Of a stretch of 9,865 bases of DNA, positions 1 through 9,865 are shown in pieces (within the stretch, counting starts at the first letter, position 1; every line of letters begins with the position of its first letter). The position numbers and the translations under genes were made by a program. The DNA lies in NCBI GenBank assembly GCA_025774615.1, contig JALGVQ010000103.1:1-9865 (forward strand), given 5' to 3'. The stretch comes from a bacterium (GTDB lineage: Bacteria; Blakebacterota; Blakebacteria; Blakebacterales; Blakebacteraceae). The notes beneath the pieces are model-generated. The model saw only the letters and a program-made list of their open reading frames with translations, ran no database searches and was not told the origin of the DNA.

Positions 1-977
1 CCGGGATCGACGAACACGATCTCTTCGCGGCTCACACCCACGAACTGCTCCCCGTTCCAGGTGAGTCCCGAGAGCCTTTCTTCGAGTTCGATCTCGCTCA
101 CGATCTCCCCGCTGCGGGGATCGACCTGGCTGATCTTCCCCGAATGGAGTACCCAGAGGCTTCCGTCCTTCCAGGTGACCGCGCTGGCCGCATAGAACTT
201 GTTGACCAGCATCTCCTCGGTGACGATCTCCCTGATGATCCGGCCATTCCTCGGATCGATGACAAAGGTGGGTTTCCCGGCGGTCCAGCCGTACTGCATG
301 CCATAGAGATACCCGCCATCGTTACAGAGCCCCCTGACCGAGGTGGCCGGTTCCCCATCCACTTCCAGTTCGTAACGGTTCCTGATCGCCCCTGTCTCCG
401 GATCGATCCGGTAGAGTGAGCCGAACTGGGCCACCCACAGATCATTACCAAGTATTGTCAGCGCGGCCGGCACCTCTTCAGAGGGGGCGGAAATCGTCCG
501 AACCGTGCCGGTATCGATGATCGAGGCCGGTCTCGGGTCCGGATCATCCCACTCCTGGCCCGAACGGTAGAGTTCATTCCTCCTCAGCGCCTCATCGAGT
601 TCGCCCATAAACGGATCGGGCAGCTTATATCCGCTCCAGCGATAGACCTTCTCCTGCTCGTCCCCGATCACCATCAGACTGGGATGGGCGGTGACATTGA
701 ATCGACTGGTGATCTCCGGGGTGGAATCCCTGAGAACCGTGACCCAGTGGAATTTCCTGCTCATCGCCACGACCGCGGCGTCGGTGTAGGTGGAATCCTC
801 CAGCACCGTACACCAGTGTCACCCGTGGAAGGTGAAGTAGAGCAGCACCGGCTTGCCGTCCCTGACGGACAGTGCCAGCGCGTCCTCGATCGAATCCTCC
901 CACGTGATGCTTCTTGTGCAGGCCGTGGTGATAAGCAGGATCAACAGTGTCGGCAGCACGGGTATGCCTCGACGCAT
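1..977 (-). CDS. Selenocysteine-containing thioredoxin-like lipoprotein with C-terminal beta-propeller (partial, continues past left edge)
   Basis: Seen: reading the minus strand from ATG at 977-975, the frame has one TGA (codon 53) and is otherwise open to the window edge, giving 325 codons. The start has an ideal SD (AGGAGG, 7 bases before ATG). Residues 1-20 (MRRG, then a hydrophobic stretch ending ITTAC) resemble a lipoprotein signal, with Cys20 as lipid anchor; the lipobox is imperfect. Residues about 24-125 form a thioredoxin fold: GKPVLLYFTFHG, then U-H-W-C at 53-56, then a cis-proline loop AHPSLMV with Pro99. This resembles Thioredoxin_7 and the CHWC of DUF255/DsbH-like domains. From about residue 140 there are propeller-like blades with recurring I/V-D-P-x-x-G motifs (YRIDPETGAI, FVIDPRNGRI, SQVDPRSGEI). 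Inferred: a membrane-anchored, periplasm-facing thiol/selenol oxidoreductase of unknown partner. Alternatives are a nonsense mutation or sequencing error, but the TGA sits at the catalytic position and is followed by a SECIS-like hairpin, which argues against both. Confidence 0.85.
783..814 (-). promoter_or_regulatory. Bacterial SECIS-like stem-loop directly downstream of the TGA
   Basis: In the mRNA, four bases after the UGA, GGUGUA (814-809) pairs perfectly with UACACC (788-783). Inside, GG (807-806) pairs with CC (790-789). A 5'-side bulge U-G-C (805-803) then leads to UGGA (802-799) pairing with UCCA (794-791), closed by the loop GGAU (798-795). The apical GG lies 20 bases after the UGA. 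The E. coli fdhF SECIS likewise has a 5'-bulged U and a loop starting with GG, 18 bases after its UGA. An alternative fold of the top (GGUG/CACC with an 11-base loop) is possible. Known role: SelB binds such hairpins to deliver Sec-tRNA. The pairing is seen; the SelB role is inferred. Confidence 0.75.
819..821 (-). other. In-frame TGA, predicted selenocysteine codon (Sec53)
   Basis: This is codon 53 of the minus-strand thioredoxin-like gene, in the context F-H-G-TGA-H-W-C. The TGA replaces the first Cys of the C-x-x-C redox motif, where bacterial selenoproteins of the thioredoxin superfamily carry Sec (UxxC). Other genes in the window use TGA as their terminal stop, so wholesale TGA reassignment does not explain it. 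Reading stops here would leave a 52-residue fragment with no active site, while more than 270 conserved-looking codons continue in the same frame. Confidence 0.85.
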
Positions 978-1183
978 GGTCGATCCTCCTCATCGGTGTC
1001 TCCCGGAAATCCCCCTCCGGAAACAGTTTCGGGGACTATATCACAGGCATCGGGCAGGGGGAACCCGCTCTCTCGGAGGAGAAACCATCTTGCCATCGGA
1101 CCCGGCATCGGCTACGAAAGAAAGCGGAAGCGCATAACAGCTCTTCAACAACCACCCGTTTTGCCGGAGGCGCGCAGGAACGC
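978..1183. other. Divergent intergenic region with promoters for both flanking transcripts presumed
   Basis: These 206 bases separate the minus-strand selenoprotein gene from the plus-strand PLP-enzyme operon. The SD of the minus-strand gene (AGGAGG, 985-990 region) lies at the left end. A TATAGT hexamer on the minus strand (1040-1035) is a reasonable -10 for that gene, but the matching -35 region (TTCCCC, 1063-1058) is poor. I see no convincing promoter for the rightward operon. A plus-strand frame is open through this region, but only by chance; it lacks a ribosome site and the family homology begins at 1184. Confidence 0.35.
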
Positions 1184-2128
1184 ATGAAGAGACCTGATCT
1201 CGAAGATATCCGGGCCGCGCATCGCCGCATCGCACCGTATATCCATCGCACTCCCGTCCTGACGTCGGCAGCCCTGGATGAGATGTGCGAGGCCTCCCTC
1301 TTCTTCAAGTGCGAGAATATGCAGAAAGCAGGCGCCTTCAAGGCCCGCGGGGCCTGTAACGCGGTCTTTTCACTGGATGAGGAGACCGCATCCCGGGGTG
1401 TGGTCACCCACTCATCGGGCAACCATGCCGCCGCTCTCTCCTGGGCGGCCCGGCTGAGAGGCATTCCTGCCCACATCGTGATGCCGTCGAACGCGCCGGC
1501 AGTCAAGCGCGCGGCGGTGGAGAGTTACGGCGGGATCATCACCCTCTGTGAACCGACACTTGCTGCCCGCGAGAGCACGGCCGAGGCCGTGATAGCCAGA
1601 ACCGGCGCCGAACTCATCCATCCCTATGACGATTACCGGATCATCGAAGCGCAGGCCACAGCGGTGATCGAACTCCTCGAGGAGGCGAACGATCTCGACG
1701 TAGTGCTCGGACCCGTTGGAGGCGGAGGGCTGATCGCCGGCACCGCGCTCGCAATTCATCACCTCGACCTGCTCACACAGGTGATCGCCTGTGAACCGGC
1801 CAACGCGGATGATGCCTACCGGTCGTTCCATGAGGGGAAGATCATCCCGAGTATCGATCCCGATACGATAGCAGACGGTCTGAGGACCCAGTTGAGTGAC
1901 AGAACCTTCGATATCATCAGTCACTTCGTCGATGACATCGTGACCGTCAGCGAGGAAGAGATCGTGGCTGCCATGAGGACCGTCTGGGAGAGGATGAAGA
2001 TCATCATAGAGCCCTCCTCCGCTGTCCCGGTGGCGGCCGCGCTATCAGGCGACCTGCCGATAGTGGGGAAACGGGTCGGAATCATTCTGAGTGGTGGGAA
2101 TGTCGATCTGGGCAATCTCCCCTTCTGA
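1184..2128 (+). CDS. Serine racemase / threonine (serine) dehydratase-type PLP enzyme
   Basis: A 314-residue fold-type II PLP enzyme. Seen: the PLP-lysine motif A-F-K-A-R-G (Lys53), the SSGNH loop at 77-81 whose second Ser matches the re-face catalytic Ser of serine racemase, the phosphate-binding VGGGG loop, the E-P-A-N-A-D-D segment matching the metal-binding segment of eukaryotic serine racemase, and a C-terminal ERMKIIIEPSSAVPVAA...LSGGNVD block. From memory it tracks human serine racemase (about 340 residues) through most blocks. Such enzymes interconvert L- and D-Ser and/or eliminate water from Ser or Thr to give pyruvate or 2-oxobutanoate; the balance cannot be read from sequence. There is no C-terminal ACT domain, so it is not the isoleucine-regulated biosynthetic IlvA type. 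The ATG at 1184 was chosen because family homology begins there and AGGA lies 4 bases upstream. It is the first gene of a likely operon with the next two. Confidence 0.9.
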   Translation: MKRPDLEDIRAAHRRIAPYIHRTPVLTSAALDEMCEASLFFKCENMQKAGAFKARGACNAVFSLDEETASRGVVTHSSGNHAAALSWAARLRGIPAHIVMPSNAPAVKRAAVESYGGIITLCEPTLAARESTAEAVIARTGAELIHPYDDYRIIEAQATAVIELLEEANDLDVVLGPVGGGGLIAGTALAIHHLDLLTQVIACEPANADDAYRSFHEGKIIPSIDPDTIADGLRTQLSDRTFDIISHFVDDIVTVSEEEIVAAMRTVWERMKIIIEPSSAVPVAAALSGDLPIVGKRVGIILSGGNVDLGNLPF

Positions 2129-2191: not shown

Positions 2192-3289
2192 GTGAGATCC
2201 ACCTGGTTCCAGAAGTACCTGCTCCCCGGATTCGTGTTCCAGTCGGTTGTAATCGGCGGCGGCTACGGAACCGGCCGGGAACTGGTGGAATTCTTTCTCA
2301 CCAACGGCCCTGTTGGGGGGCTTCTCGGTATGATGCTGGTTTCCACGGTGATCTGGAGTGCTGTCTGCGCTGTGACATTCGAGTTCGCGCGCGTCTTCCG
2401 CAGCAATGACTATCGCACCCTTTTCACCCATCTGCTGGGCCGGGGATGGGTTATGTTCGAGATCTGCTACTTCCTGCTCCTGCTGATCATCCTCGGTGTG
2501 ATCGCGGCCACTGCGGGCACGATCCTCGAAGAAACATTCGCACTCAACTATACCCTGGGTGTGATAATCATGATGGCAGCGATCGGCTTCCTGGTATTCA
2601 GGGGCAGCCGAACAATCGAGCGGGTCCTGGCGACCTGGTCCTTCATACTCTATGGGGTCTTCTTCACCCTCTTCATCTGGTGCCTGATCCGGTTCAACAG
2701 CGAGATCGGGATGGCACTGACATCCGGCGGGATCGGCAGAGGCTGGTTCGTCGACGGGGTGCGGTATGCCGCCTACAACCTGGCCGTTATCCCGGCAGTC
2801 TTCTTCTGCGTGCGGCACATGGAAACACGGCGGGAGGCCGTCACCGCCGGTCTCCTTTCCGGTCTCATCGGCATCATTCCCGCGCTCCTTTTCTTCCTGG
2901 CGATGTCCGGGTTCTACCCCGGGATCGTCGATCAGCCTGTCCCGGCCACCTTCATGATCGGTGCGCTCGGATCCCACGGCTTCCTGCTGGTATATCAGTT
3001 CGTCCTGTACGGAACACTGATCGAGACCGGAACCGGCATGATCCATGCCATCAATGAGAGGATCGCTGGTGTATACGCAGAGAGACAGAGAGCCATGCCG
3101 GTATCACTCCGGCCGGCTATCGCTGTGGCCCTCCTCCTCTTTGGAGCGATTCTGGCCAGATTCGGTCTCATAGACCTTATCGCAAGGGGATACGGGACTC
3201 TCAGCTGGCTATTCCTGCTTATCTTCGTCATTCCCATCCTGACACGGGGCATCTGGCTCATCAGGGCGAGAGGGTACACCACAACATGA
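2192..3289 (+). CDS. YkvI-family integral membrane protein (putative amino-acid-type transporter)
   Basis: A 365-residue, strongly hydrophobic protein with about ten membrane segments. The N-terminal signature V-I-G-G-G-Y-G-T-G-R-E-L (residues 20-31) breaks the first helix with glycines, as in the unwound helix of LeuT/APC-fold carriers, and is typical of COG3949 (Bacillus YkvI). A second conserved stretch is L-I-E-T-G-T-G-M-I-H-A-I-N-E near residue 275. The start is GTG at 2192, preceded by GAGGAGG with a 9-base gap. The family has no firm substrate that I can recall. Its position 63 bases after a serine/threonine-type PLP enzyme and 16 bases before a GNAT enzyme points to amino acids or derivatives, as inference. 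A long antisense open frame covers part of this gene and is taken as a composition artefact. Confidence 0.85.
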   Translation: MRSTWFQKYLLPGFVFQSVVIGGGYGTGRELVEFFLTNGPVGGLLGMMLVSTVIWSAVCAVTFEFARVFRSNDYRTLFTHLLGRGWVMFEICYFLLLLIILGVIAATAGTILEETFALNYTLGVIIMMAAIGFLVFRGSRTIERVLATWSFILYGVFFTLFIWCLIRFNSEIGMALTSGGIGRGWFVDGVRYAAYNLAVIPAVFFCVRHMETRREAVTAGLLSGLIGIIPALLFFLAMSGFYPGIVDQPVPATFMIGALGSHGFLLVYQFVLYGTLIETGTGMIHAINERIAGVYAERQRAMPVSLRPAIAVALLLFGAILARFGLIDLIARGYGTLSWLFLLIFVIPILTRGIWLIRARGYTTT

Positions 3290-3305
3290 TGTGGAGGTTT
3301 CACTG

Positions 3306-4172
3306 ATGGTTGATGACAGGACGTGCGTGGAACTCTCAGATGTTGCCTTGCGCCCCCTGAAAACCCATGAGGATTTCGACCAGTGCGTCTCACTGCAGCG
3401 CGAGACGTGGGGTGAGGATTTCACCGAAGTGGTCCCGCCTTCCATCCTGATGATCAGCCAGAAGGTCGGCGGAGTTGCGGTCGGTGCGTTCGATCCCGCT
3501 GAAAGACTCCTCGGGTTCGTCTTCGGTGTGACAGGTATCGATGAAGGGGAGGTGGTACACTGGTCGGACATGCTGGCGGTTCGTCCGGAATGCACCGGTA
3601 TCGGACTCGGGAGGAACCTGAAGGCTTTCCAGCGCGAGCGACTTCTGGAACTGGGCGTGGAGATCGTCAGGTGGAGTTACGATCCCCTGGAGGCTTCGAA
3701 CGCCCATCTGAATATCAACCGTCTCGGAGCCCGTCCGGTCGAGTACATCGAGAACATGTATGGAAATGGCACCGGGAGTATCCGCCACATCGGGATCGGG
3801 ACAGACCGGTTCATGATCCAATGGGATCTGAAAGATCCCCGCGTCGATGACGCGCTGGCGGGCAGGCTGACGGTCAGTCCCGCTCTGATCGTACAGGTCC
3901 CTGTCGTGAATATTGACACAGTGGATGAGACTCCGGGACCGGTGGAGATCGATCTGCCGGCGCTTCCCTCGGTGCGGGTCGAGATCCCCGCGAACATCCA
4001 GGAAATGAAGCTCCAGGATCCTGACCTGGCCGGTCAGTGGCGGCTGACAACCCGCAGGGCTTTCCAGTGGTACCTCGGGAAAGGGTACGCCGTCGATGGC
4101 TTCATCAACGACCCGAATTCCGGTCGCTGTTTCTACTTCCTCTCCAGTATCAGTTCCCGGGAAGATGAGTGA
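3306..4172 (+). CDS. GNAT-family acyltransferase of the COG3375 type
   Basis: 288 residues. The GNAT core occupies about residues 15-180, with acyl-CoA motif A at M-L-A-V-R-P-E-C-T-G-I-G-L-G-R (89-103). It is followed by R-W-S-Y-D-P-L-E-A-S-N-A-H-L-N and R-L-G-A...N-M-Y-G, which I recognise from COG3375. A C-terminal extension (about 190-288, ending R-A-F-Q-W-Y-L-G-K-G-Y-A-V-D-G-F) is also seen in that group. The ATG at 3306 is preferred over GTG at 3291 because GGAGG (3293-3297) lies 8 bases before 3306 and would be inside the longer version. Known: COG3375-like proteins often sit beside N-acylamino acid racemases, and a GNAT enzyme N-succinylates D-amino acids in the D-to-L conversion pathway described in Geobacillus. 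Inferred: it N-acylates an amino acid supplied by its neighbours. The acyl donor and acceptor cannot be told from sequence. Confidence 0.85.
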   Translation: MVDDRTCVELSDVALRPLKTHEDFDQCVSLQRETWGEDFTEVVPPSILMISQKVGGVAVGAFDPAERLLGFVFGVTGIDEGEVVHWSDMLAVRPECTGIGLGRNLKAFQRERLLELGVEIVRWSYDPLEASNAHLNINRLGARPVEYIENMYGNGTGSIRHIGIGTDRFMIQWDLKDPRVDDALAGRLTVSPALIVQVPVVNIDTVDETPGPVEIDLPALPSVRVEIPANIQEMKLQDPDLAGQWRLTTRRAFQWYLGKGYAVDGFINDPNSGRCFYFLSSISSREDE

Positions 4173-4290: not shown

Positions 4291-7200
4291 ATGCGCGCCC
4301 GATCGTGCCGGCTCAACTGTCCTGTTTCCGGACATCTGCAGAGGACGTTGCCCCTCACCCTCCTCCTGAGCATCCTCCTCCTGAGTATCTTCCTTCCGCG
4401 ACCAGCTCTGGCGCAGGCAACAACCGGGGTGATCAGGGGGATGATTCACGATACAGAGACGACTGAGCCACTCCAGCAGGTGAACATCCAGCTGTTCCAC
4501 CATGACGGGACGAGTACCGGTATGGGGGCGGCTACTGATGAAGCGGGGCGGTTCGTCATCCTGAATATCCCACCCGGCATCTATACCCTCATGGCCACCA
4601 TGATCGGCTATGCTCCGGTTGAGGTCGATGGTCTGTCTGTGATCACCGGAAGGACCACGAATCTCGATATTTCCCTCGAACCGGTAACGATGGAGACCGG
4701 ATACATTATCACCGTCACAGCCGAGACTGATCACCTGAAGCGAGATGTGACTTCCTCACGGGACTCCTACACATCTTCGCAGATGATGGACATGCCCGCC
4801 TACAGCACTTCCGACATTCTCAATCTTCAGACGAATTTCTTCTTCGAGAACAATTTCACCCACGACATCCCCGGTTATTACGACCGGGGTATCCAGCAGG
4901 TACATGTGCGCGGTGGACGAAATGCCGAAGTCGCTTTCATGCTTGATGGGATGCAGGTCACCAACCTTGTGTTCGGTGGACAGGCTGTTCAGACGAACCC
5001 GAGCGCCCTGCAGGAAATGGTCGTCATGGCGAGCGGCATGAGCGCGGAATTCGGGAATGCGCTCAGTGGTGTGGTGAACTTCGTAACCAGAAGCGGCGGT
5101 CCGGTATACGAAGGGAATGTGGAGATCCTCTCCAGTGAGTTGAGCGGCCGGCAGCCGGATGATGTTCGTGACATGACCCGGGCCAGGGCTTCTCTTGGAG
5201 GCCCGATTCCGAGCATATCGTTCCTCACATTCTTCCTCTCAGGATCAACTGTCACCGAACGCGACTACCTGGTCGAGAAGGATGATGTCGTCTACGACCT
5301 GCATGTGGATCCTGAAGATCCCTCCAGCCGCAAGGATGATATTTCCTACGATCAGATGCCGGATGACTGGACAGAATTCGATTACGCGACACACAATCCA
5401 TACGCCCAACGGGAGACCGTCACCGGGAACAACTGGCGTATATATCCAACCGACATATACGCGGGCTGGCTCGGCTACGGATACAACAACAACCAGGAAT
5501 CACTGGTAAACCTCACCGCCAGAATCACACCGACCATGCGTCTGAAGGCATCGTGGGTCAGAAACCGGTCCGATCGGGTGCCATATACCAACGCCTGGCG
5601 GTACTCGATGTTCTGGGGGATACCGCAGGAGATCCAGGACAACTGCATCTGGGGCACCGAACGCTGGAACGCCGATCCGATGTATGCTGGAGAGGATTTC
5701 TATCTGGGAGACGCGCGCCAGAGTTCCCAGATCATCTCAAGCACAGGCCTGACCGATTTTCCCAACGAAAAGAATATTGTGACCAAGGCTCACGACCGGC
5801 TCGCGCTGGTCTGGACACACCAGCCCTCACAGTCGATCTTCTACACCCTCCGGGCGTCCTACCTTGACTACAACCGCACCATGCGGGTGAAGCGGTGGGT
5901 GAATGAAGATGGCTGGGCGCCCCGGTTCGAACATCGATATGCGGATTCAGGGACGTGGCTCAATACCCACTGGGACCCTGACGATGCGATGACCCAGGTC
6001 ACCCTTGAACCGACACCCTACATATCGAGCGACGATGCGCCTGATGGGAGCCGACGGTACGGGTATTTTCCGATCGGCGGCGCCGGTTACGGGAACGACG
6101 GATCGGATCGCTACTTCTCCAACCAGTTCGACATCACCCGCCAGGTGAAACTGGATGTCACTGCACAGGTGAGTCCCCATCATCTTCTGAAAGCAGGATT
6201 CCAGTACAGGGCGCTCACTATCGATCAATACGACGTGCAGCTGCTCTACCTCTACCCGCCCTACATCAGCCAGTACCGGCGGGGCCCCACAGAGGCAGCA
6301 GTCTACATCCAGGACAAGATCGAATACCCGCACTTCGTTCTGAACCTCGGTCTCCGGTATGATTGGAGTCGATCGGGCAACGTACCCTTCTGGCCTGATC
6401 CATATACTCCGACCTGGCCCGGCGGCTATGGTCCGATCGACATGAATGGTGAACTCTACATCCATCCCCCCGACCATGAGCAGTACTCTGTTCGTCATTC
6501 CGGCAAGAGGCAGGAGATCTCCCCCCGGCTTGGATTTTCCCATCCTCTCTCGGAACGGTCGGTCTTTTATTTCAACTACGGCCACTTCTATCAGATCCCT
6601 GTCTACCGGAACATGTATCTGCAGGGATCCATGGCAGATTCTGTCCCCCTGTTCGGCAATCCAACACTCGAGAGTGAACGATCATCAAAGTATGAAATCG
6701 GCCTGCGCAGTCATCTGGATGAGACACATATGGTCTCCCTCGTTCTCTGGGGGAAGGACACAAGCAATCTTGTTGGAACGCAGTTCGTCCCGGCCTTCTT
6801 CATGGGAGTAAGCAATCCCTATGATTACACCATCTTCGTCAACTATGACTACACCACGGCCCGGGGAGTTGATCTCTCAATCTCCCGCCGACTTCGCGGT
6901 CATTGGAGCGGCCGCGTGAATTATTCATTTCTCCACGCACGTACCAACCGTGACGATCCGTGGTCAGGTTATAGGGGACGTCACGATCTCGACACCACTC
7001 CGAAACGGACCCGGCCGGCAAAATGGGACCAGCCTCACACACTGTCCGCCTCAATGAGCCTGAATCTGCCGGCCGGATCGGGACCGATGATCGTCGGGAT
7101 CAAACCGTTCGAACGCCTCCTGGTGAGTCTTACCTACCGCGGTTCTGCAGGACGGCCATATACACCAACCACGAAGGAGCGGGCCCTCGAACTGAACTCG

Positions 7201-7458
7201 GGTAGACTTCCCTGGACCCATCAGTGCGACATGAGGGTCTACCGTGATCTGCACCTCTTCGGGCTGGATTGCGGTCTGCTCGCCCAGATCAGGAACCTGT
7301 TCGACCGACGGAATGTGCAATCGGTCTTTTCACGGACAGGGCAACCTGATGATCCGGGACCGGGGGCAACCAGTTACAGTGAGAATTACGACCGTTCTCA
7401 CTATTACGGCACACGCCGTGCGATAGATATCGGGATCCAGGTGAGGTTCAACGAGTAG
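4291..7458 (+). CDS. TonB-dependent outer-membrane receptor with N-terminal carboxypeptidase-regulatory-like domain
   Basis: 1055 residues. The signal peptide is residues 1-41 (long basic N-region, then L-T-L-L-L-S-I-L-L-L-S-I, cleavage A-L-A/Q). Residues 46-130 form a CarboxypepD_reg-like beta domain (G-V-I-R-G-M-I-H-D, then T-D-E-A-G-R-F, then I-P-P-G-I-Y-T-L). A TonB-box-like I-I-T-V-T-A follows at 139-144. The plug domain (about 150-275) contains V-H-V-R-G-G-R-N-A-E-V-A-F-M-L-D-G and A-L-S-G-V-V-N-F-V-T-R-S-G-G. The rest is an aromatic-rich beta-barrel ending I-G-I-Q-V-R-F-N-E. The role is energised uptake across the outer membrane; the substrate is unknown and no SusD-like partner lies in the window. 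The start has AAGGA 6 bases before ATG. The 118-base gap from the GNAT gene suggests its own promoter, which I cannot identify. Three TAG stops in tandem end the gene. Confidence 0.95.
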   Translation: MRARSCRLNCPVSGHLQRTLPLTLLLSILLLSIFLPRPALAQATTGVIRGMIHDTETTEPLQQVNIQLFHHDGTSTGMGAATDEAGRFVILNIPPGIYTLMATMIGYAPVEVDGLSVITGRTTNLDISLEPVTMETGYIITVTAETDHLKRDVTSSRDSYTSSQMMDMPAYSTSDILNLQTNFFFENNFTHDIPGYYDRGIQQVHVRGGRNAEVAFMLDGMQVTNLVFGGQAVQTNPSALQEMVVMASGMSAEFGNALSGVVNFVTRSGGPVYEGNVEILSSELSGRQPDDVRDMTRARASLGGPIPSISFLTFFLSGSTVTERDYLVEKDDVVYDLHVDPEDPSSRKDDISYDQMPDDWTEFDYATHNPYAQRETVTGNNWRIYPTDIYAGWLGYGYNNNQESLVNLTARITPTMRLKASWVRNRSDRVPYTNAWRYSMFWGIPQEIQDNCIWGTERWNADPMYAGEDFYLGDARQSSQIISSTGLTDFPNEKNIVTKAHDRLALVWTHQPSQSIFYTLRASYLDYNRTMRVKRWVNEDGWAPRFEHRYADSGTWLNTHWDPDDAMTQVTLEPTPYISSDDAPDGSRRYGYFPIGGAGYGNDGSDRYFSNQFDITRQVKLDVTAQVSPHHLLKAGFQYRALTIDQYDVQLLYLYPPYISQYRRGPTEAAVYIQDKIEYPHFVLNLGLRYDWSRSGNVPFWPDPYTPTWPGGYGPIDMNGELYIHPPDHEQYSVRHSGKRQEISPRLGFSHPLSERSVFYFNYGHFYQIPVYRNMYLQGSMADSVPLFGNPTLESERSSKYEIGLRSHLDETHMVSLVLWGKDTSNLVGTQFVPAFFMGVSNPYDYTIFVNYDYTTARGVDLSISRRLRGHWSGRVNYSFLHARTNRDDPWSGYRGRHDLDTTPKRTRPAKWDQPHTLSASMSLNLPAGSGPMIVGIKPFERLLVSLTYRGSAGRPYTPTTKERALELNSGRLPWTHQCDMRVYRDLHLFGLDCGLLAQIRNLFDRRNVQSVFSRTGQPDDPGPGATSYSENYDRSHYYGTRRAIDIGIQVRFNE
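4360..4389 (+). repeat. Imperfect 15-bp tandem repeat within the receptor signal peptide
   Basis: CTCCTCCTGAGCATC is followed at once by CTCCTCCTGAGTATC, one mismatch in 15. It encodes L-L-L-S-I twice in the hydrophobic core of the signal peptide. The unit length keeps the frame, so slippage here would lengthen or shorten the hydrophobic core by five residues. Confidence 0.85.
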
Positions 7459-8119: not shown

Positions 8120-8326
8120 ATGGGCAACCCGAACCTGAGGAACAACCTGAAGGTATTCCGCGCCAGACACGACCTCACCCAGGCAGATCTGGCTGAGCGG
8201 ATCGGCGTTACCCGAAAGACCATCAATACCATCGAAACCGGCAGGTTCGTCCCCTCCACGGTCCTGGCTCTCAAGCTTGCCCGGGCGTTCGAGGTTCCGG
8301 TCGAGGAACTTTTCGAACTGGAGTGA
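8120..8326 (+). CDS. Small XRE/Cro-CI family transcriptional regulator
   Basis: 68 residues, essentially only the HTH_3 domain. L-K-V-F-R-A-R-H-D-L-T-Q-A-D-L-A-E-R-I-G (10-29) carries the first helices and the T-Q-x-x-L-A signature. V-T-R-K-T-I-N-T-I-E-T-G-R (30-42) is the recognition helix and following turn. The tail is A-L-K-L-A-R-A-F-E-V-P-V-E-E-L-F. This is the YozG-like minimal class. GGAGG sits 9 bases before ATG, overlapping the end of the upstream membrane protein gene, so the two are translationally coupled. As a dimer it would bind an inverted repeat; the dyads at 7501-7549 are the obvious candidate, implying autoregulation. No ligand or partner domain is present in the protein itself. 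Confidence 0.93.
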   Translation: MGNPNLRNNLKVFRARHDLTQADLAERIGVTRKTINTIETGRFVPSTVLALKLARAFEVPVEELFELE

Positions 8327-8439
8327 TGGCGGGGTCCGGATCGACAAAAATATCGCACTTTTCTGCTGTCGGTGCCTTGCACTACACTTTCGCCCTCACA
8401 GTCCAGCCGCGTTTCAACACTGGAATCCTGGGGGCGAGC

Positions 8440-9865
8440 ATGAAAACCTTACTATCCGGCGCTCTGATCTGTTGCACAGCACTTCTCTGCCTTGCCACCC
8501 CGGCTCAGGCGCAACTGGAAGAATGGGAAGAGGTCGTTAACAATCAACTCGCGGCCGCGCATGAAGCGCTTGCCGATGAAGGCTTCTCTCTCATCCGTGA
8601 CCATCAGAAAGGGTACCTTGCGAACGAGAGCAAGGAACGTATCTCCTTCACTCTCAGGGCAGGAGTCGCCTACCGGATCCTGGGAGTATGTGACAACGAC
8701 TGCGATGATCTCGATCTGACACTCTATGACCCGAAGGGGAAAAAGGTCACCGAGGATGTGGCCGTCGACGATTACCCTCTTCTGTCGATCACTCCTGATG
8801 TGACCGGAACCTACCAGGTCGAGGTCTACATGGTGTCATGTACGGTCTCGCCCTGCTACTACGGGATCGGTATCTGGGGTGAAGGGAGTGGAGTCGGCGG
8901 CGCATCGAACAAGCAGGGCGATTCCTATACCGGCAGACTGCAATCAGGAGACACCACTCTCACCTCGGGAGAGTATGTCGACAACTACACCTTTGAAGCC
9001 AGAGCAGGCCAGCACATCATCGTTGAACTCCGTTCGACCGATTTCGACACCTGGCTCATCGTGAAATCTCCCAGCGGTGACCAGACGGACAATGACGACC
9101 ATGAAGGGGACGTGAACCTCTCACGAGTTGAGATCGATGCCGGTGAGTCAGGAACGTGGAGTGTGCTGGCTACCTCGTACGAGAAGGGGGAGACCGGTTC
9201 GTATGAGGTCACCATCTCGGTCGGTGGTGACAGCGGCGGTGGTGGCGGGACCCGCAGGGAGAGCGGCAGCCTGGCAAAGGGAGACTCCCTGCTCGAAACG
9301 GGTGAATATTTCGACTCGTACACCTTTGATGCCGAGATCGGCCAGACGGTCGTGGTCGATCTATTCTCCAGTGAGTTCGACACCTATCTCGGAGTCGGTT
9401 CGCCCAGCGACGATCTCAACGAGAACGACGACTGGGAAGATGGGGACATCACCCATTCACGGGTCGAGGTAGACATCACCGAATCAGGGACCTGGTCGAT
9501 CATCGCCACTTCCTATGAGGGAGGAGAGACCGGCAGTTACGAACTCACCATCACTGTCAGTGGTGGACCAGCCGGATCTTCGAGTGGCGGTCCCCGGATC
9601 GAAAGCGGCGAACTCGCCCGGGGCGATGAGACCATCGATACCGGTGAGTTCATCGACCTCTATACCTTCGTGGGAACCGTGGGTGAACAGGTTGTCCTCG
9701 ACCTCCGCTCGATCCATTTCGACACCTACCTGATCGTTCTCACGCCGGGTCAGGAGAGGCAGGAGAACGATGACTTCGAGGGTGACGTGGATCGATCCCT
9801 GCTCAACCTCGAGCTCACCGAGAGTGGGACCTACACCGTCGGCGTGACCTCGTATGAGGCCGGAG
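8440..9865 (+). CDS. Secreted protein with at least three PPC-type beta-sandwich repeats (partial, continues past right edge)
   Basis: The frame is open from ATG 8440 to the window end (475 codons). Residues 1-24 are a clear signal peptide (M-K-T-L-L, hydrophobic core, A-Q-A/Q). Residues 25-60 look helical. Residues 65-147 form a beta domain with four cysteines in two pairs (C84-D-N-D-C88 and C134-T-V-S-P-C139), plausibly disulfides, and a D-D-L-D-L motif typical of PPC-like folds. Three repeats follow, starting near residues 165, 276 and 390, separated by Gly/Ser-rich linkers. Each has G-E-(Y/F)-x-D-x-Y-T-F, F-D-T-(W/Y)-L, an N-D-D acidic loop, E-S-G-T-(W/Y) and T-S-Y-E. PPC domains are usually non-catalytic C-terminal modules on secreted enzymes; no catalytic domain is seen before the edge. 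The ribosome site is poor (GGGGG 4 bases upstream), so the start rests on the signal peptide. Confidence 0.9.
   Translation, partial: MKTLLSGALICCTALLCLATPAQAQLEEWEEVVNNQLAAAHEALADEGFSLIRDHQKGYLANESKERISFTLRAGVAYRILGVCDNDCDDLDLTLYDPKGKKVTEDVAVDDYPLLSITPDVTGTYQVEVYMVSCTVSPCYYGIGIWGEGSGVGGASNKQGDSYTGRLQSGDTTLTSGEYVDNYTFEARAGQHIIVELRSTDFDTWLIVKSPSGDQTDNDDHEGDVNLSRVEIDAGESGTWSVLATSYEKGETGSYEVTISVGGDSGGGGGTRRESGSLAKGDSLLETGEYFDSYTFDAEIGQTVVVDLFSSEFDTYLGVGSPSDDLNENDDWEDGDITHSRVEVDITESGTWSIIATSYEGGETGSYELTITVSGGPAGSSSGGPRIESGELARGDETIDTGEFIDLYTFVGTVGEQVVLDLRSIHFDTYLIVLTPGQERQENDDFEGDVDRSLLNLELTESGTYTVGVTSYEAG
8932..9865 (+). repeat. Three tandem PPC-domain repeats at the DNA level
   Basis: The repeat units begin near 8932, 9265 and 9607 (steps of 333 and 342 bases); the first two end near 9222 and 9558 and the third is cut by the window end. 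Shared protein landmarks recur in the same order in each unit, showing internal duplication with moderate divergence. Gly/Ser linkers vary in length and sequence between units. Confidence 0.9.

Follow-up and report, generated by a model that had tools for sequence, protein, structure and literature searches.

The window analysed here is an entire contig of 9,865 bases from a bacterial genome assembly of 3.3 Mb, 324 contigs and 82% completeness. Its minus strand carries, from position 977 to position 3, a gene that is open over 325 codons apart from a single TGA at 821-819 (Table 1); this frame contains no TAA or TAG, and the other two minus-strand frames have eight stops each. The predicted protein reads MRRGIPVLPTLLILLITTACTRS...KPVLLYFTFHGUHWCTVLEDSTYTD..., in which the motif HGUHWC corresponds to codons 51-56. 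Because the gene runs off the contig end at codon 325, about 55 residues are missing from its C-terminus; the natural end is known from the orthologue L019, which has 378 amino acids. A sequence-only reading of the window had proposed a minus-strand gene starting at 977 with a good Shine-Dalgarno sequence and only one TGA, and this is borne out by the AGGAGG at 990-985 and the 325 otherwise open codons. The same reading held that TGA is a normal stop nearby, so that any recoding must be local. Consistently, TGA terminates four of the five neighbouring frames that we inspected, and it is therefore an ordinary stop rather than a general sense codon.

Beside this gene lies a divergently oriented PALP-family gene (threonine/serine dehydratase-like; 1184-2128, plus strand), which has a counterpart next to L019 (2-613, minus strand) and is the only neighbour common to the two loci. 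It is followed on the plus strand by a long open frame for a hydrophobic, transporter-like protein (2192-3289) and a 293-aa frame that is acetyltransferase-like by eye (3291-4172), both of which have no Pfam match at E 1e-4; by a gene for a TonB-dependent receptor that includes a carboxypeptidase-regulatory domain (4291-7458); and by a gene (8323-9864) that is truncated by the contig end and whose product contains a pre-peptidase C-terminal (PPC) domain.

Table 1. Features of the predicted selenoprotein gene in the window
Feature	Coordinates	Strand	Basis or remark
Predicted selenoprotein coding sequence	3..977	-	325 codons present, Sec predicted at codon 53; 3' end lost at contig end
UGA codon, predicted Sec53, first residue of U-H-W-C	819..821	-	8 orthologues have TGA in this column and 2 have Cys
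Ribosome-binding site AGGAGG, 7 nt 5' of ATG (977-975)	985..990	-	Sequence
N-terminal signal sequence, residues 1-20; last residue is Cys20, common to L019, a possible lipoprotein Cys	918..977	-	Sequence; export putative
Thioredoxin domain, residues 22-131, Thioredox_DsbH / Thioredoxin_7	585..914	-	PF03190 and PF13899 profiles
Codon (TGT) for resolving Cys56	810..812	-	Invariant in orthologue alignment
Codon for Pro99, cis-Pro position of thioredoxin fold	681..683	-	Invariant in orthologue alignment
Beta-propeller from about residue 155, incomplete; glutaminyl-cyclase-like fold	3..515	-	Full-length orthologue L019
Putative bacterial SECIS, GGUGUA-C-GGU-GCU-GGA[GGAU]UCC-ACC-UACACC	783..814	-	Apical loop GGAU 798-795, begins 20 nt past UGA

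An orthologue set was built by scanning 392 sampled Planctomycetota genomes, in addition to a contig scan with a two-sequence profile, which found only L019 and L049. Including the window, ten orthologues have the full architecture, of which eight carry TGA at the identical column and two carry Cys; thus, the homologue check that the sequence-only reading had suggested gave Sec or Cys at this column in all ten proteins. Of the TGA forms, two belong to different genera within the family of the window and six to Planctomycetota genomes; their motifs are UHWC (the window, L019, L049, L060 and L062), UTWC (L059 and L061) and UHFC (L063); both Cys forms (L057 and L058) have CVWC. L019, from another genus of the same family (G003; contig JAUVWC010000226.1, labelled Candidatus Zixiibacteriota bacterium CSMAG_1180), encodes a protein that is 69% identical to that of the window and has TGA at the same codon; L049, from a member of the Planctomycetota (G193), is 47% identical and again has TGA; and the same-column TGA persists down to about 36% protein identity. 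Cys56 and Pro99 are invariant across the nine aligned orthologues. Among 386 genomes sampled across the domain, the architecture was found only in the window's own family, and among 17 genomes from the class to which G193 belongs it was found only in G193 itself. In a tree of these proteins, the Cys forms L057 and L058 group as sisters, and they branch with the pair formed by the window protein and L019 with moderate support (83/92), a topology that fits one single exchange between Sec and Cys, in either direction.

These comparisons bear directly on two more trivial explanations of the TGA. The first is that sequencing or assembly introduced the TGA by mistake, or that it is a true stop which inactivates a pseudogene. 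The fragmented and incomplete assembly is in line with such an error; however, the TGA is conserved in eight separately assembled genomes, and therefore a sequencing error cannot explain it. Moreover, the frame contains no further stop, and two orthologues have Cys exactly at this position, making an error or a pseudogene exceedingly improbable. The second explanation is that the gene makes two products or a shorter one, by stopping at the TGA or by starting past it at the GTG at 806, in which case a product of at least 268 amino acids would comprise the propeller without the active site. A mechanical ORF finder does pick the GTG at 806 as the start, just as the sequence-only reading had anticipated for gene calling in general. 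However, the protein identity between the window and L019 extends upstream of the TGA, codons 10-52 being conserved at the protein level in that other genus; the AGGAGG site and the signal sequence belong to the start at 977; and the Cys orthologues run uninterrupted through the TGA position. We consider a shorter product in place of the full-length protein very improbable. Translation is nonetheless expected to end at a Sec UGA in some cases, and a short fragment may accompany the full protein. As ordinary gene calling removes the active site, members of this family are easily mis-annotated.

All four genes of the selenocysteine machinery for which the sequence-only reading had advised a search are present in the genome of the window: selA (E 6e-153), selB (E 7e-96, in a 701-aa frame), selD (E 5e-105) and a tRNA-Sec (66.2 bits with a cut-off of 47; anticodon TCA, based on ARAGORN). 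The selD gene also encodes a selenoprotein: its one in-frame TGA (L014 1531-1533) lies in the motif CAGUASK, which matches the UxxK site motif of Sec-containing selenophosphate synthetases (PMC13188914). With the machinery present and selD having its own TGA, recoding of UGA is expected elsewhere in this genome. Within the ten-orthologue set, the tRNA-Sec scores above the cut-off in every genome, and SelB does so in all genomes except the 63%-complete G003. Both genomes with a Cys form have retained tRNA-Sec and SelB, arguing that the exchange between Sec and Cys is not a by-product of machinery loss. In G001, a sister genome from the same genus as the window, the Sec machinery is present and a search for the orthologue found none.

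The machinery also bears on the possibility that the UGA is read as another amino acid, either by a suppressor tRNA or in a code in which UGA specifies Trp or Gly. A conserved in-frame TGA alone does not specify the residue; however, the usage of TGA as a stop in the neighbouring frames, the canonical tRNA-Sec together with three sel protein genes, and the fact that the orthologues exchange the residue for Cys and not for Trp or Gly, at the position that is the redox-active one, make this reading about as improbable as that of a shorter product. Altogether, the comparative sequence evidence makes it highly probable that the UGA at 821-819 encodes selenocysteine 53.

Past the UGA lies a hairpin that could act as a bacterial SECIS element. 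According to published rules, such elements have an apical loop of 3-9 nt with G in the first two positions, the loop lies 16-37 nt past the UGA, and the folding energy is at most -7.5 kcal/mol (PMC13188914). Each of the eight TGA orthologues has a hairpin within these rules, with energies from -10.3 to -17.2 kcal/mol and the loop 18-23 nt past the UGA; so do eight more distant TGA-bearing thioredoxin genes and selD of the window genome, which served as a positive control (-14.4 kcal/mol). The two Cys orthologues have -6.1 and -2.6 kcal/mol and fall outside the energy limit. In a rule-constrained scan of the window, the alternative with the lowest energy folds the same region into a hairpin with a larger loop. 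For the eight orthologues, which are not independent of each other, comparison of the hairpins with synonymous recodings yields a Fisher p of 0.004, and comparison with different codons from these genes yields 0.013; when the sixteen TGA genes are taken together, p is near 2e-5 under both controls. The relatedness of the genes makes all of these values optimistic. Gene by gene, the excess over random is modest: some individual genes do not stand out, and the hairpin of L061 is no better than random. In the window, the 34-nt hairpin alone has a z of about -2, and the 53-nt stretches that surround or follow the UGA have ordinary folding energies (z -0.8 and -0.2). Because the hairpins are placed differently in different orthologues, they have no support from covariation, and searches with the Rfam SECIS families gave no match at gathering scores or at E up to 10. 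Conservation at the codon level was compared between the window and L019. Among the 13 informative codons just past the UGA, 12 are identical, compared with 96/178 away from codons 37-68 (p 0.004). Codons 37-52, upstream of the UGA, are conserved equally (13/14), and therefore a SECIS element need not account for all of the codon conservation.

The N-terminal part of the protein is a thioredoxin domain. In the window, it matches PF03190 (Thioredox_DsbH) with 39.9 bits and PF13899 (Thioredoxin_7) with 34.0 bits, the cut-off being 27 in both cases, and the nine orthologues all match thioredoxin Pfam families at E up to 0.001. By sequence, the nearest PDB chains of this part are of the DsbH, DsbD-gamma and disulfide isomerase types. 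In an AlphaFold2 model of full-length L019 (pLDDT 88.8, pTM 0.78), residue 53 follows a core strand (residues 44-49) and leads into the helix of the active site (54-63), which U-H-W-C opens, and residues 154-378 form a beta-propeller. The sequence-only reading had assigned the TGA to the first CxxC position of a thioredoxin domain, and had described a proper cis-Pro loop and propeller motifs; the first is upheld by the U-H-W-C motif with Cys at this place in two orthologues, the second agrees with the invariance of Pro99, its predicted cis-Pro residue, and the third is confirmed by the L019 model. Among solved folds, glutaminyl cyclases come closest to the propeller, with Z 20.6-22.7 (2.1-2.5 Å), followed by the next fold at Z 16.4; NHL propellers have Z 14.7-15.9.

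This likeness raises the possibility that the protein contains Sec but functions otherwise than as a general reductase, i.e. that the Sec module is peroxidase-like or handles metal or selenium, and that the propeller is a second, glutaminyl-cyclase-like active site. The gap in Z between the glutaminyl cyclases and the next fold speaks for such a propeller. However, the propeller sequence of the window has 11.4 bits against the PF05096 cut-off of 22.3, and the closest sequence profiles of the thioredoxin domain are those of DsbH, DsbD-gamma and disulfide isomerases. We consider this possibility unlikely, albeit far more credible than the alternatives to Sec discussed above. Membership in PF05096 was rejected on the same score, only one of nine orthologues being below E 0.001; because the propeller is below the family cut-off, we do not claim cyclase activity, and a glutaminyl cyclase function without a family-level match was set aside.

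Selenoproteins with a UxxC motif in a thioredoxin fold are a well-known bacterial kind (PMC13188914, PMC2398784). The UxxC Trx-like selenoproteins, for example the thiol:disulfide interchange protein (PF13098) and 'Trx-like 2' of the GOS data (cd02953), resemble the protein described here in having a thioredoxin fold, a first redox Cys replaced by Sec and a bSECIS just past the UGA; however, none is tabulated with a C-terminal beta-propeller (PMC13188914, PMC2398784), and the H-W spacer and the sequence family differ. TsoB (NF045694), which is rhodanese/DsbD fusion-like, contains a similar DsbD-gamma-like thioredoxin module, but the match is weak (21.8 to 33.2 bits), far under the 805-bit cut-off, and TsoB has a different architecture and a UxxxxU motif with two Sec residues. 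The Trx7/PDZ (seleno)protein (NF041199) likewise combines a Thioredoxin_7-type domain with a second domain; in its case, the second domain is PDZ and Sec is the second redox residue (CxxU), and the score is 12.7 bits against a cut-off of 300. DsbH (NF043050) and DsbD-gamma share the thioredoxin fold and family (Thioredox_DsbH, PF03190) but have Cys and no propeller, and the DsbH equivalog scores 21.5-26.3 bits against a cut-off of 190. The score of NF041383 (VPGUxxT) is also under the family cut-off. The plant- and bacterial-type glutaminyl cyclases 3mbr and 3nol match the propeller fold (Z 22-23, 2.1-2.3 Å, 198-199 residues) but lack a thioredoxin domain, and the sequence of the window propeller scores below the cut-off of their family.

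The order of domains, a thioredoxin-type domain followed by a beta-propeller, is the same in NHLRC2 and SOQ1, in which the active motif sits in a cleft that a Trx-like domain forms with an NHL propeller (PMC6107167). The structures 6gc1 and 7djk align with the model over both domains, but at an rmsd of 12 Å, so shared packing is unsupported. These proteins have a six-bladed NHL propeller, and they differ in their CCINC motif, their TlpA/DipZ-type thioredoxin and their lack of Sec. Identity with NHLRC2/SOQ1 was rejected: their motif CC(I/V)NC (PMC6107167) is absent from the ten orthologues, all of which have UHWC, UTWC, UHFC or CVWC.

No NCBIfam model, including TsoB, Trx7/PDZ and VPGUxxT, reaches its cut-off on the protein; a thioredoxin–propeller fusion is missing from the 119 families and subfamilies in a 2026 inventory of prokaryotic selenoproteins (PMC13188914); and among the open-licence papers searched, we found none that joins a propeller to a bacterial thioredoxin selenoprotein. 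The sequence-only reading could name no described selenoprotein family for this protein, and NCBIfam and the inventory are consistent with that. Because no NCBIfam cut-off is reached, no inventory entry exists and the CCINC motif is absent, we suggest that the protein represents a new family among the UxxC thioredoxin-fold selenoproteins. It would add a selenoprotein family that combines a thioredoxin domain with a glutaminyl-cyclase-like propeller, in bacteria for which assembled environmental genomes are the main source of knowledge. Moreover, the natural Sec and Cys versions of one protein offer a direct route to the benefit of selenium for an envelope oxidoreductase.

According to our model, the UGA would be decoded as Sec by SelA, SelB, SelC and SelD of the cell, a step that the comparison of orthologues supports, and decoding would be directed by the SECIS hairpin within the coding sequence, which starts five bases past the UGA. 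The N-terminal signal sequence would lead to export of the protein, perhaps as an envelope lipoprotein. By analogy to the Cys-X-X-Cys of DsbD-gamma and DsbH, Sec53 would be the attacking selenolate and Cys56 the resolving thiol, and the likeliest role would be the reduction of disulfides or oxidised thiols in the envelope. By analogy with NHLRC2 and SOQ1, we speculate that the C-terminal propeller docks a partner or substrate beside the active site. An envelope reductase with a docking propeller is the role that we favour, if only by a little. Outside the family, the gene has no conserved operon partner, and by eye the Planctomycetota contigs have no common operon; with no conserved neighbour, the substrate and the direction of the reaction are guesses.

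More broadly, it is conceivable, and we propose it tentatively, that Planctomycetota and other phyla have many exported Trx_7/DsbD-gamma-like selenoproteins that await cataloguing, and that the thioredoxin–propeller protein is a branch of this large set. Within the set, the first CxxC position would commonly be Sec, with Cys as the derived state, and the envelope disulfide chemistry of these bacteria would accordingly depend on selenium.

Further Thioredoxin_7/DsbD-gamma-like genes contain a single in-frame TGA. They lie in Planctomycetota genomes (L053, L056, L075, L079, L084 and L085) and in L021 (G060) and L029 (G011). The TGA is mostly at the first CxxC position (UGAC, UTGC, UASC, UHFC and UKWC), the motif in L053 being C-U-P-V-D; each has a hairpin within the SECIS rules, and none attains an NCBIfam cut-off. 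In the scan of 392 Planctomycetota genomes, dozens more of the matches listed have one TGA. These further TGA-bearing Trx_7 genes suggest that selenium use in Planctomycetota has been under-counted. In G193, the orthologue is directly preceded on its strand by another thioredoxin gene with a TGA (first ~800 bases of L049; L053), and the two genes are possibly a selenoprotein pair; L075 contains two TGA-bearing thioredoxin genes in tandem.
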